Below, piece after piece: positions 21,901 to 25,939 of a DNA stretch of 49,380 nt; position 1 is the stretch's first letter, and every line of letters starts with the position of its first letter. The position numbers and the translations under genes are program-made. The DNA comes from Gemmatimonadota bacterium (lineage in GTDB: Bacteria; Gemmatimonadota; Gemmatimonadetes; Gemmatimonadales; Gemmatimonadaceae): assembly GCA_021324775.1 (NCBI GenBank), contig JAJPIM010000017.1, positions 1-49,380 of the forward strand, read 5' to 3'. The notes below the pieces were generated by a model. It did not search any database. It saw only the letters and a list, made by a program, of their open reading frames with translations, and had not been told where the DNA came from.

Positions 21901-22221
21901 ATGGACTCCCCGCCCCCGATCGAAGAGATCACGAGACTCATCGCCGACGCATTCCATCCGCGGCGCATTGTGCTGTTTGGGAGCCGCGCGCGCGGCGACG
22001 CCACTCCCGACAGTGATGTCGACCTCATGATCGAGATGGACACGACGGCGAGTCCGATCGAACGTGCCATCGCTGTACGAACGCTGTTCGGCCTCCGTAC
22101 TTGGTCACTAGATGTCGTCGTGTACACGCCCGACGAGATTGACCGGCTGCGACGGATCAACGGTACGCTTGCGTCTATGATCGACGCGGAGGGCCGAGTT
22201 GTGTATGAGCGGGCCGCCTAG
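21901..22221 (+). CDS. MNT-type nucleotidyltransferase (antitoxin of an MNT/HEPN pair)
   Basis: Minimal nucleotidyltransferase of 106 residues. The active-site motif is LFGSRARGDATPDSDVDLMI, with GS, the two metal-binding Asp and the following hydrophobic strand; a third acidic residue is expected in SLDVVVYTPDE. In known MNT/HEPN systems such proteins modify the HEPN partner and neutralise it. The downstream HEPN gene overlaps its 3' end by 17 bases. It is preceded by spacer full of palindromic repeats, and no ribosome-binding site is clear. Confidence 0.87.
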   Translation: MDSPPPIEEITRLIADAFHPRRIVLFGSRARGDATPDSDVDLMIEMDTTASPIERAIAVRTLFGLRTWSLDVVVYTPDEIDRLRRINGTLASMIDAEGRVVYERAA

Positions 22222-22603
22222 CCCGCCGTTGCACAATGCGGCCGCTTGGATCGCGAAAGCGGACAACGACCTCCTGGCGGCCGACAACAACGTATCGGCC
22301 GCGCGAACTCCGTGGGATGCCGTCTGCTTTCACGCGCAGCAGGCAGCCGAAAAATCGCTCAAGGCCCTGTTGGTGGCGCGCGGGATACTGCCGCCCCACA
22401 AGCACGACCTCACCGATTTATTGACGCGGGCGCTTGCCTTTGAGCCGACGCTCCGGTCACTGGCTGCAGACGCGACAATGCTGACGAGCTATGCCGTCGA
22501 AGTGCGATACCCGGACAGTCTCGTCACCTGCACGGCTGCCGACGGCCACGCCGCCCTGGCCGCAGGGCGCCGAATCAGGGAGGCGGTGGTGGCCGTCCTC
22601 TAG
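22205..22603 (+). CDS. HEPN-domain protein (partner of MNT nucleotidyltransferase)
   Basis: All-helical HEPN protein of 132 residues from the ATG at 22205 (MSGPPSPPLHNAAAWIAKAD). Typical features are WDAVCFHAQQAAEKSLKALL, the PHKHDLTDLL segment and VRYPD near the end. The RX4HXY RNase motif of HepT-type toxins is not present in that form, so toxicity cannot be taken for granted. It overlaps the MNT gene, which supports a functional pair, either a toxin-antitoxin module or a nucleotide-modifying complex. It ends convergent to the aquaporin gene. Confidence 0.85.
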   Translation: MSGPPSPPLHNAAAWIAKADNDLLAADNNVSAARTPWDAVCFHAQQAAEKSLKALLVARGILPPHKHDLTDLLTRALAFEPTLRSLAADATMLTSYAVEVRYPDSLVTCTAADGHAALAAGRRIREAVVAVL

Positions 22604-22787: not shown

Positions 22788-23504
22788 TTACACCGATCCT
22801 TGAACGCCAAAAATACGGCTCGCCACTGGGGCCTTCGCATCCCGCAGCCAATCATACAGACGCGCCGCGGCGATCATCCCCGTGATCGGCGCCAACCAGT
22901 AGATCCAATGCGCAGTCCAGAGTCCGCCGACGACCGCAGGACCGAAGGAGCGCGCCGGGTTCATCGACGCACCGGTCAACGGCCCGCCGGTCAGCGCGCA
23001 GAATCCCACGGTCAGGCCGACCGCCAGCGGGGCGAATCCCGGCGCGACGCGGTCGTCCGTCGCCACGGCCATGATCACGAGCATCAGCGCGAATGACAGC
23101 AACCACTCGATCGCAAACGCGGCACCGATTGGGATCGCCGGCAGCGTCGCGCCGAGATGCCCGACCGGACCGAGAACGGCCCGCAGCGTCGCGGCGGCGG
23201 CGGCCGCGCCAACACATTGGGCGACGACGTAGGGGATCACCTCACGCGCCGGAAATCGGCGGGCGGACCAGAAGGCGACCGTCACAGCCGGGTTGATGTG
23301 CGCGCCCGAGACGTGCCCCAGCGCGTACACCATCGCGATCACCACAAAGGCGAACGCGAGCGCGATGCCCGACACGCCGAGCACTCCCCCGCCCCAGGCA
23401 TTCACCATCGCCGCGCCCGGACCGATCAGTACGAGGAAGAATGTCCCGACGGCCTCCGCAGTCAGACGGCGCAGATCGAGGCGTTCGGGACGCTCGTGTG
23501 TCAC
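22788..23504 (-). CDS. MIP-family aquaporin in the arsenic operon (AqpS-like)
   Basis: Channel protein of 238 residues with six membrane segments and both half-helix motifs intact: HINPAVT and MNPARS. The residue after the second NPAR is Ser, as in water-type aquaporins, rather than the Asp of glycerol facilitators. In Sinorhizobium a MIP channel in an ars operon lets arsenite leave the cell; here the same role for arsenite or a methylated product is inferred from context. The GTG start overlaps the metallophosphoesterase stop, so it is the last gene of arsR-arsM-phosphoesterase-aquaporin. Confidence 0.85.
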   Translation of the reverse strand: MTHERPERLDLRRLTAEAVGTFFLVLIGPGAAMVNAWGGGVLGVSGIALAFAFVVIAMVYALGHVSGAHINPAVTVAFWSARRFPAREVIPYVVAQCVGAAAAAATLRAVLGPVGHLGATLPAIPIGAAFAIEWLLSFALMLVIMAVATDDRVAPGFAPLAVGLTVGFCALTGGPLTGASMNPARSFGPAVVGGLWTAHWIYWLAPITGMIAAARLYDWLRDAKAPVASRIFGVQGSV

Positions 23505-24283
23505 GACGCCGACCCGGCTTCTGTCGTGGCGGACAACGACCGCCCGCCGGTACGGAGAAACATCGCGAACTCGTGCGGCAGCTCACTCGCGAGTATCGCC
23601 CGCGCAGCACGCTCGACATCGTACTCGACCCGGATGACCCGCACGCCGACGCGGCCAGGTTCCACATCGAGCATCACGTACCCGGCCCGCCAATCGCCAT
23701 CTTTGGGCCGCCCGACACTCCCCGTGTTGACGAAGTGCACCCCCTCCACCTCCGCGTGCCACGGCACGTGCGTGTGGCCGAACGCGAGCACATCACCGGG
23801 ACGGGCGCCAGCAAGTTCCGCCATCTTCATGCGAAAGCTGTCGGGACGATCTTCGGTCCAGTACAGCGTATTGAGTGTGGGGGCGCCGTGAACCAGGATC
23901 ACCGTGGGCCCGCCGATATGGCCGCCCATGGGGCGGACGTCAATCCGGAACGGAAGGGCCGCGAGGGCCGCACGCGTCGCAGGCTGGACGTGTGCCTTGG
24001 TCCAGACGAAGCTCTCGTGCGACAGTTGTTCCTGTCGCGGATCCTCGTAGCGGCAGCCACAATGCTTGTAGTCAGAGGCGACGGTGGAATCGTAGTTGCC
24101 GCTCACCCCCGGAATCGATCGCGCCCCGATCAGATCGACGACCTCGTTTGGCCACGGAGCATACCCCACGAGATCACCGAGGTGATACGTGGCGGCGACG
24201 TCGGGCCGCCGGCCGATGTCCGCCAGCACGGCTTCGAGCGCTGGCAGATTGCCGTGAATATCTGAGATCAGAGCGTATCGCAT
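23501..24283 (-). CDS. Calcineurin-like metallophosphoesterase in the arsenic operon
   Basis: Two-metal phosphoesterase of 260 residues. Metal and catalytic motifs in order: DIHGN near residue 8, GDLVGYAP, GNYD (family usual GNHD), VHGAP and GHTHVP. The ATG at 24283 (MRYALISDIHGN) is the natural start; the open frame upstream of it only shadows arsM. It lies 38 bases after arsM and overlaps the aquaporin start by 4 bases. Phosphatases of this class do occur in ars operons, but the substrate is unknown. A housekeeping phosphodiesterase captured by the operon is the alternative. Confidence 0.87.
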   Translation of the reverse strand: MRYALISDIHGNLPALEAVLADIGRRPDVAATYHLGDLVGYAPWPNEVVDLIGARSIPGVSGNYDSTVASDYKHCGCRYEDPRQEQLSHESFVWTKAHVQPATRAALAALPFRIDVRPMGGHIGGPTVILVHGAPTLNTLYWTEDRPDSFRMKMAELAGARPGDVLAFGHTHVPWHAEVEGVHFVNTGSVGRPKDGDWRAGYVMLDVEPGRVGVRVIRVEYDVERAARAILASELPHEFAMFLRTGGRSLSATTEAGSAS

Positions 24284-24321: not shown

Positions 24322-25206
24322 TTAGGCCGGCTGTGCCGGCTTGGTCGCCCGCACGAAAGCACTCATGATGCGCCCCGAGACCTCTTGGGCGATTCGGCCG
24401 GCGTCCAGGCCGCTGCCGGACAGAAACGCGCGGGCATCCTCGAACTCGTAAACCCGCGTCGGCTCGATCGACGCATCGACAAAACCCGCCTCGCTCAAGA
24501 GTGCCAGGAACTCCCGGTCCTCGAGGGCGCCGGCGATGCACCCGACCCAAAGCTCCATGCTTCTGCGGACTGCCAGGGGCACGGGCCCCTGGATCACGAC
24601 ATCCGAGACGGCGAACCGTCCGCCGGGCTTGAGCACGCGGAAGGCTTCGGTCAGCACCCGCCGCTTATCCGCCGACAGGTTCACGACGCAGTTCGAGATG
24701 ATCACATCTACGGACTGGTCGGGAAGAGGCACCGTTTCGATCTGGCCTTTCAGGAATTCGACATTGGTCGCGCCGGCGCTCTCTGCGTTGCGGCGAGCGA
24801 GGGCGAGCATGTCGTCCGTCATGTCCAGACCATACGCTTTGCCCGTTGGGCCCACGCGCCGCGCCGACAGCAGCACATCGATGCCACCCCCGGACCCCAG
24901 GTCCAGCACTGTCTCGCCGGCGCGCAGCTCGGCGAGCGCCGTTGGGTTGCCGCACCCGAGGGAAGCCAGCACGGCCGTCTCGGGCAGGTCGCTGGTTTGA
25001 TCCACACTATAGAGGTTCGAGGAAATGGGATCGTCCGCACCCCCGCAGCACGTCGGGCCGCAGCACGACGCGGTCGTTCCGGCCGCGACGCGCCGGGCGA
25101 CTTCGCCGTATCTCGCCTTCACGGTCTCCGTAACCGTGGCGGTGTCATCGCAGCATGTTGGCTCGCAGCAGCCGGCGGCACTTGGATCGCGATTCTCTGC
25201 AGGCAT
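24322..25206 (-). CDS. arsM: Arsenite S-adenosylmethionine methyltransferase
   Basis: Methylates As(III) stepwise to less retained methyl and volatile forms in the cytoplasm. It has 294 residues from the ATG at 25206, which has a GAGG site 5 bases upstream. The SAM-binding motif is VLDLGSGGGIDVLLSA. The three cysteines that coordinate arsenic in ArsM proteins are at about 85 (SLGCGNP), 173 (ISNCVVN) and 223 (VGCIAGA). The N-terminus carries two CC-x-P-T-CC motifs, at residues 13-19 and 48-54. It follows arsR by 78 bases and is followed by the phosphoesterase. A small relic of a second arsM lies at 21457-21513. Confidence 0.94.
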   Translation of the reverse strand: MPAENRDPSAAGCCEPTCCDDTATVTETVKARYGEVARRVAAGTTASCCGPTCCGGADDPISSNLYSVDQTSDLPETAVLASLGCGNPTALAELRAGETVLDLGSGGGIDVLLSARRVGPTGKAYGLDMTDDMLALARRNAESAGATNVEFLKGQIETVPLPDQSVDVIISNCVVNLSADKRRVLTEAFRVLKPGGRFAVSDVVIQGPVPLAVRRSMELWVGCIAGALEDREFLALLSEAGFVDASIEPTRVYEFEDARAFLSGSGLDAGRIAQEVSGRIMSAFVRATKPAQPA

Positions 25207-25284
25207 AAGGCCTCGTCGTATGATCAATGTTCGTTTATGTATTACGCCGAAAAGCGGCGCCGGCTACCGGCGCCACGGCGACCT

Positions 25285-25608
25285 TCACCCGCAGCAGCGA
25301 GCGACGTTCAGTGACAGTTTGGTGGACGGGAGCGCGCCGACGAACTCCTCGAGCTGCGCGAAGGCCTCCGGATTGAGCGCGTAGTACGCCCAACGCCCCT
25401 GTCGGCGATCGACGACGAGCCCGGCATCCTTCATGGTCTTCAAATGGAAGGACAGGAGCGGCTGGCTGAGATCCAACGCATCGGTGAGTTCGCAAACGCA
25501 CCGCTCCCCGCCTCGCAGCAGGTCGACGATCCGCAGGCGATTCTCGTCCGACAACGCACGAAACTGCCTCGTGATGCCGGTCAGGTCCGGCGCGGCGACT
25601 GGTGACAT
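25285..25608 (-). CDS. arsR: ArsR-family arsenic-responsive repressor
   Basis: Winged-helix metalloregulator of 107 residues that should repress its own operon and release DNA on binding As(III). The sensing motif ERCVCELTDAL contains the Cys-x-Cys pair of the classical ArsR site. The recognition helix follows in LSQPLLSFHLKTMKDAGLV, then the wing DRRQGRWAYYAL. A further Cys pair stands at the extreme C-terminus (ARCCG). A GAGGAAG ribosome-binding site is placed 2 bases before the ATG. It is the first gene of the arsenic operon, behind a consensus promoter. Confidence 0.94.
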   Translation of the reverse strand: MSPVAAPDLTGITRQFRALSDENRLRIVDLLRGGERCVCELTDALDLSQPLLSFHLKTMKDAGLVVDRRQGRWAYYALNPEAFAQLEEFVGALPSTKLSLNVARCCG

Positions 25609-25620
25609 GGCTTCCTCGTC

Positions 25621-25658
25621 AACTCTCTGCGCTTTCTACTTTCTACTTTCTGCCGTTT
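25621..25658. repeat. Polypyrimidine tract A
   Basis: The + strand is almost pure C/T with the repeated word tctacttt, ending ctttctgcc. It forms the leader region of arsR (purine-rich in the RNA). Related tracts are at 33086-33161, 38670-38712, 42503-42570 and 43815-43858. Confidence 0.6.
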
Positions 25659-25667
25659 GATGGCTGC

Positions 25668-25697
25668 ATTATACATCAATAGCCATTTATGTGTCAA
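25668..25697 (-). promoter_or_regulatory. Consensus sigma-70 promoter of the arsenic operon with operator-like spacer
   Basis: On the minus strand a perfect TTGACA (25692-25697) and a perfect TATAAT (25668-25673) are separated by exactly 18 bases. That spacer (25674-25691) is itself an imperfect dyad, CATAAATGG facing CTATTGATG, of the size and AT-rich type bound by ArsR/SmtB repressors. The -10 is 60 bases before the arsR ATG. A bound repressor would cover both promoter elements. Confidence 0.85.
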
Positions 25698-25939
25698 GCC
25701 TCGCCTTCCGCGCCGCCCGCCAGGTTCAGCGCCGCCCGCGCATCCTCGAGCGCGGCTGCCGGCACCAGCACCGTCACGCCGCGAGACGTCGCCCCCTGAA
25801 AACCGGGCCCGAATATCCCCGCGATATCGTTGTTGCTGCGCACCGCGGGAATCTCGGCCGCCTCGAGCTGCGCAATCGCAAAGTCCGCCTCGAACCCCGA
25901 GGCGTACGTGGCCAATGCGCGCCATTCTGTCCCACTCAT
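25694..25939 (-). CDS. DUF2007 small protein
   Basis: 81 residues from the ATG at 25939 (MSGTEWRALATYASGFEAD). The pattern LATYASGFEADFAIAQLEAA-EIPAVRSNND followed by a hydrophobic strand VTVLVPAAALEDARAAL is that of DUF2007 (PII-like, putative signal-transducing). Function is not established. The open frame continues upstream to 26047 but overlaps the next gene and is Trp/Arg-rich, so it is not counted. Its stop codon lies inside the -35 box of the ars promoter. It follows the aldolase-like gene by 10 bases and may be co-transcribed. Confidence 0.7.
   Translation of the reverse strand: MSGTEWRALATYASGFEADFAIAQLEAAEIPAVRSNNDIAGIFGPGFQGATSRGVTVLVPAAALEDARAALNLAGGAEGEA

Follow-up and report, generated by a model that had tools for sequence, protein, structure and literature searches.

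A probable promoter-spacer ArsR operator and a candidate second operator at the arsR–arsM junction of a Gemmatimonadota arsenic operon

The ars locus and its repressor

We analyzed a 49,380-nucleotide stretch of Gemmatimonadota DNA (hereafter the window), in which the genes for ArsR, ArsM, a metallophosphoesterase and a MIP-family channel follow one another in that order on one strand, closely spaced and downstream of a promoter with two consensus hexamers (Table 1). Methylarsenite, a product of ArsM, is a candidate signal for ArsR besides arsenite. The genome yielded no ACR3 pump; hence, judging from the gene set, arsenite may leave the cell through the MIP-family channel. Adjoining the end of the operon, on the opposite strand, are genes for a nucleotidyltransferase (MNT) and a HEPN protein (21901-22603, plus strand), a pairing typical of toxin–antitoxin-like arrangements.

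Table 1. Features of the ars locus, in window coordinates
Feature	Position	Strand	Basis or remark
DUF2007 gene, upstream	25694..25939	minus	ORF and profile match
-35 hexamer TTGACA	25697-25692	minus	perfect consensus; overlaps DUF2007 stop codon
Spacer dyad CATAAATGG/CTATTGATG, 18 bp (CATAAATGGCTATTGATG)	25691-25674	minus	dyad scoring and relatives
Operator 1 core ATAAATGGCTATTGAT, inside spacer (putative)	25675-25690	minus	motif match
-10 hexamer TATAAT	25673-25668	minus	perfect consensus
ATC in the slot of the relatives' arsR start codon	25659..25661	minus	alignment with relatives
Predicted 53-nt 5′ leader	25609..25661	minus	absent from nearly all relatives
7-bp tandem repeat, 2.9 copies, in leader	25632-25651	minus	
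GAGG Shine–Dalgarno site in leader	25614-25617	minus	
arsR, 107 aa, ArsR/SmtB repressor	25285..25608	minus	ORF and profile match
GC-rich hairpin GGCGCCGGTAGCCGGCGCC, arsR–arsM gap	25256..25274	minus	TTTT close behind; hairpin and TTTT span 25250-25275
Operator 2 ATAAACGAACATTGAT, arsR–arsM gap (putative)	25238-25223	minus	box match; without promoter hexamers of its own
arsM, arsenite methyltransferase	24322..25206	minus	NF008823, 361 bits, cut-off 263
Metallophosphoesterase gene, same operon	23501..24283	minus	ORF and profile match
MIP-family channel (aquaporin) gene	22788..23504	minus	4-nt overlap with metallophosphoesterase gene

The identity of the gene next to the promoter, which an earlier sequence-only reading of this DNA had taken to be arsR, is confirmed by profile matches to the ArsR family (PF01022, 65 bits; NF033788, 101.8 bits against a cut-off of 55), and SmtB, CzrA and ArsR are among the sequence relatives of its product with solved structures. 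The protein displays a cysteine metal-binding box of the ELCV(C/G)D type in the form RCVCEL (Cys37-Val-Cys39), whose CVC signature is present in all 75 of 75 relatives, and a C-terminal Cys105-Cys106, with a CC pair likewise found in 54/75 relatives. It does not belong to type 1, as the third cysteine of that type (Cys32-Cys34-Cys37 in R773, a triad described in PMC11868830) is absent from its CVCELTD segment; unlike the Arsenicibacter type, it is also devoid of the Cys80/Cys82 pair (PMC11868830). This ArsR combines an N-terminal CVC with a C-terminal CC but lacks the third cysteine that completes the known arsenite triads.

The promoter and its probable spacer operator

The arsR promoter combines perfect -35 and -10 hexamers at 18-bp spacing, as the sequence-only reading had stated; that reading gave the feature in plus-strand coordinates, and the feature, though real, lies on the minus strand. 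The stop codon of the DUF2007 gene (TGA, 25696-25694) falls inside the -35 hexamer, an overlap that had also been correctly seen. This is the sole perfect TTGACA/TATAAT pair of the window, with 0 expected from 100 dinucleotide shuffles of the window, and perfect pairs at 15-19-bp spacing occur only twice in the whole 4.19-Mb genome, in agreement with the claim that such hexamers are rare here. The other pair of the genome, at G000:C5:361939-361969 (locus L001), has a 19-bp spacer.

The spacer is indeed a single dyad, albeit an imperfect one, with 7 of its 9 positions paired, a qualification missing from the original claim. Shuffling the same 18 bases gives a dyad at least as good in 0.34% of cases, and 0.31% of the 18-mers of the window reach this score. 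Operator 1, which reads ATAAA-N6-TTGAT, is one mismatch away from ATCAA-N6-TTGAT, a core motif published for ArsR (PMC9137774, which cites Wang et al. 2009 for Campylobacter jejuni). Such sites are bound in vitro by the ArsR of Paracoccus with a Kd of 9-140 nM, and arsenite releases the protein (PMC9137774). As ATAAA replaces ATCAA in one half-site of both operators of the window, the affinity of ArsR for them may be lower. By pattern matching, the only approach used in our genome-wide regulon searches, the extended operator motif with at most one mismatch is found at four places in the genome, two of which are operators 1 and 2.

For comparison, ArsR homologues were taken from named genomes and 60 relatives, and those whose recognition region contains S[FW]HL, which come from Gemmatimonadota, Nitrospirota and Rokubacteria, were treated as the same ArsR type. 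Within this type the box lies upstream of arsR in 72 loci, with the recurrent pattern TTGAC-nn-ATCAA-N6-TTGAT-ATAT, and 92% of these 72 sites have at least 4/6 matches in both flanking hexamers, as against 0.8% of random places. Over all ArsR types fetched, ATCAA-N6-TTGAT is perfect in 35/107 upstream regions and present with at most one mismatch in 74/107; the other types (from Actinobacteria and others) are mostly without the box and serve as an internal negative control. A search for half-site variants that track a recognition-helix residue (SQP versus SQS) yielded no consistent pattern.

The dyad, whose conservation in relatives had been named as a check on its function, is thus conserved together with its hexamers, and the site, which had been treated as unusual, has the layout that is standard in this ArsR clade, an ordinary conserved mode of ArsR action. 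The imperfect pairing of the dyad might be read as a sign that an AT-rich stretch has given rise to promoter and dyad by chance and is no ArsR operator at all; in view of the 72-locus conservation, the genome-wide rarity of the promoter and the single mismatch to the published core, this is barely credible. Conversely, the earlier proposal that a repressor in the spacer excludes the polymerase is strongly supported by the 72 homologous arsR promoters and the published core. Steric occlusion of the polymerase by ArsR at operator 1 can accordingly be regarded as a well-supported prediction, and the locus very probably has an autoregulated ars operon promoter of this kind.

The conservation also fits the suggestion that this control DNA is strongly selected. 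The companion suggestion that it is imported was not borne out: GC content gives no signal of import, with the ars genes at 0.645-0.683 against 0.66 for the genome, and the AT-rich part of the ars region is the promoter–leader alone. In the one congener examined, neither DUF2007 nor ars genes lie beside the alr-like ortholog, which allows mobility without proving it. Plasmid origin was considered and dropped, as there is no near plasmid match and only 60-80% matches to arsM and neighboring genes; these include Rubrobacter plasmids that carry arsM along with metallophosphoesterase and MIP genes.

A predicted arsR leader, probably acquired

In most relatives the arsR start codon lies about 3-7 nt after the -10 hexamer, a spread that may reflect two spacer sub-types of 16 and 18 bp; with a start codon so close behind the promoter, transcription should start at this codon or beside it, and their arsR mRNAs should be leaderless. 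The window does not share this layout and is an outlier of the ArsR clade, with 59 nt between the -10 hexamer and the true arsR ATG at 25608. Here, GCAGCC-ATC (25667-25659) stands opposite GGAGCC-ATG of locus L004, and transcription would, by our reading, start at about 25661. Since the first ArsR residues align with those of the relatives, the predicted leader was probably gained between the promoter and arsR.

A putative second operator at the repressor–effector junction

The sequence-only reading, whose case for an operator in the arsR promoter is well supported, had missed both this unusual leader and a second operator-like box after arsR. The latter, with at most one mismatch, is found no further than 150 nt after arsR in 63/75 loci and is perfect in 53, whereas the remainder of the loci contains it in only 0.27% of 150-bp stretches. 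It is present in most members of 47/55 ArsR clusters defined at 90% identity and of 5/7 defined at 70%. In those 63 of 75 loci it has the layout of an auxiliary operator, namely a promoterless site in the transcribed gap between repressor and effector. The gene that follows is arsM in most loci and acr3, coding for the ACR3 pump, in one Nitrospirota group; thus, operator 2 is tied to the repressor/effector junction rather than to one gene. On balance, we favor the view that operator 2 is a natural auxiliary operator acting as a putative roadblock. Second boxes after arsR were seen, for example, in the window and in loci L005, L084, L096 and L014 from Gemmatimonadota and Nitrospirota. Loci L116 (3243-3291) and L117 (3220-3268), from the relatives G047 and G037, instead have two tandem boxes upstream of arsR, 33 bp apart, and no box was found after arsR in these two loci.

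Three other roles for operator 2 need to be weighed. It could be a separate ArsR-controlled promoter of arsM, or the relic of a duplicated promoter–operator, as hinted by -35-like bases before some copies: TTGACAC in L098, TTGATAC in L084, and TTGATTC, with TACAAT, in L113. We consider this quite improbable, as both hexamers reach 4/6 matches or better in just 3% of operator-2 copies, compared with 92% for operator 1, and the window copy scores 3/6 and 3/6; moreover, in Nitrospirota a Shine–Dalgarno site follows directly after the box, leaving no room for a normal -10 hexamer and leader. The box is also an inverted repeat that in many relatives lies near the ribosome site of the next gene, and could on that account be an RNA hairpin before the arsM Shine–Dalgarno site, acting on translation or mRNA decay. 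However, the folding energy of its five-pair stems is no better than -0.6 to -0.9 kcal/mol, two of the five tested, the window included, do not fold, and the second box matches the DNA operator of the promoter spacer. An RNA role was rejected because the fold is too weak, and we regard it as highly unlikely.

The main rival is looping, in which ArsR dimers on operators 1 and 2 would interact and shut the promoter more tightly, with no roadblock at operator 2. Two conserved sites at a fairly constant spacing speak for it, namely 361-410 bp in the relatives and 452 bp in the window, although the latter distance is outside the common range. The spacing of the two operators also looks helically phased (R = 0.48 over 61 loci), but this is dominated by related Nitrospirota that share the same arsR length (365-368 bp) and is therefore not independent evidence; being confounded by relatedness, it was dropped as an argument. 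We know of no ArsR-type dimers that tetramerise across long loops. Looping hence seems unlikely to us, and we retain the roadblock as the favored role of operator 2.

Comparison with known ArsR systems

In Paracoccus denitrificans, arsR1 and arsR2 share with the window the core dyad and autoregulation of arsR; the Paracoccus sites lie just before the ATG, as two putative upstream sites with an 8-bp overlap, whereas in the window the dyad fills the promoter spacer and a second copy follows arsR (PMC9137774). The ArsR1 and ArsR2 promoters of Pseudomonas putida resemble the window in the placement of the operator: it overlaps the core promoter, with footprints from about -39 to +14, which points to repression by occlusion (PMC7994332). 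They differ from the window in belonging to other ArsRs, with transcripts that have a marked ribosome-binding site, and in the passages drawn on here no operator is described after arsR and before the gene that follows.

Escherichia coli resembles the window in having arsR as the first gene, a feedback loop and a repressor released by arsenite. Its ArsR operator differs in sequence from that of the window. It also differs in position, lying at -64 to -40, upstream of the core promoter (PMC12607644), whereas the window operator is within the spacer. The known roadblock proteins include E. coli ArsR (PMC10310618), and the background of a bioreporter falls when another ArsR site is placed downstream of arsR (Stocker 2003, described in PMC3918153 and PMC10310618). 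Like operator 2, the engineered site is an additional ArsR operator that separates arsR from the output gene; it is, however, man-made and of the E. coli type, whereas operator 2 occurs naturally, is conserved in two phyla and is a putative roadblock. In the open literature we found no account of a natural ArsR operator that separates arsR from arsM or acr3, though one may have been described elsewhere.

A proposed two-operator circuit and its implications

From the promoter, the two operator-like boxes, the gene order and their conservation, we infer ArsR binding, occlusion, release by arsenic and roadblocking, in the following scheme. A dimer of ArsR on operator 1 would fill the spacer between the -35 and -10 hexamers and bar RNA polymerase, until trivalent arsenic frees the repressor and the strong consensus promoter fires. 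ArsR on operator 2 would halt those polymerases that have escaped operator 1, once arsR has been copied, such that basal transcription could top up the repressor without producing the methyltransferase and the channel. That such a circuit, with operator 1 governing initiation and operator 2 blocking read-through, is native to Gemmatimonadota and Nitrospirota appears to us somewhat better than an even proposition. Operator 2 could also contribute little. The strong GC-rich hairpin directly upstream of it is possibly a weak terminator or a processing hairpin and, with its TTTT, may by itself reduce read-through in this genome.

An operator in the promoter spacer is known ArsR biology; what is new is to see it as the standard layout across a whole ArsR clade. 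The indifference of the junction operator to the effector gene suggests that bacteria evolved an internal roadblock against the leak of an autoregulated repressor, predating the version of the biosensor engineers. If so, evolution would have produced a counterpart of the low-background ArsR biosensor that engineers built, with the leak going to the repressor and not to the effectors. The arsR mRNAs of this circuit would mostly have no leader, the present genome being one that has changed to a leadered arsR. As a start codon follows the -10 hexamer so closely in almost all loci, leaderless arsR mRNAs are to be expected in these phyla, for which genetic tools are scarce. The layout also offers compact, probably tightly controlled arsenic-sensor parts. 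For the laboratory, the features of most interest are the junction operator, with its conservation, and the change of leader.
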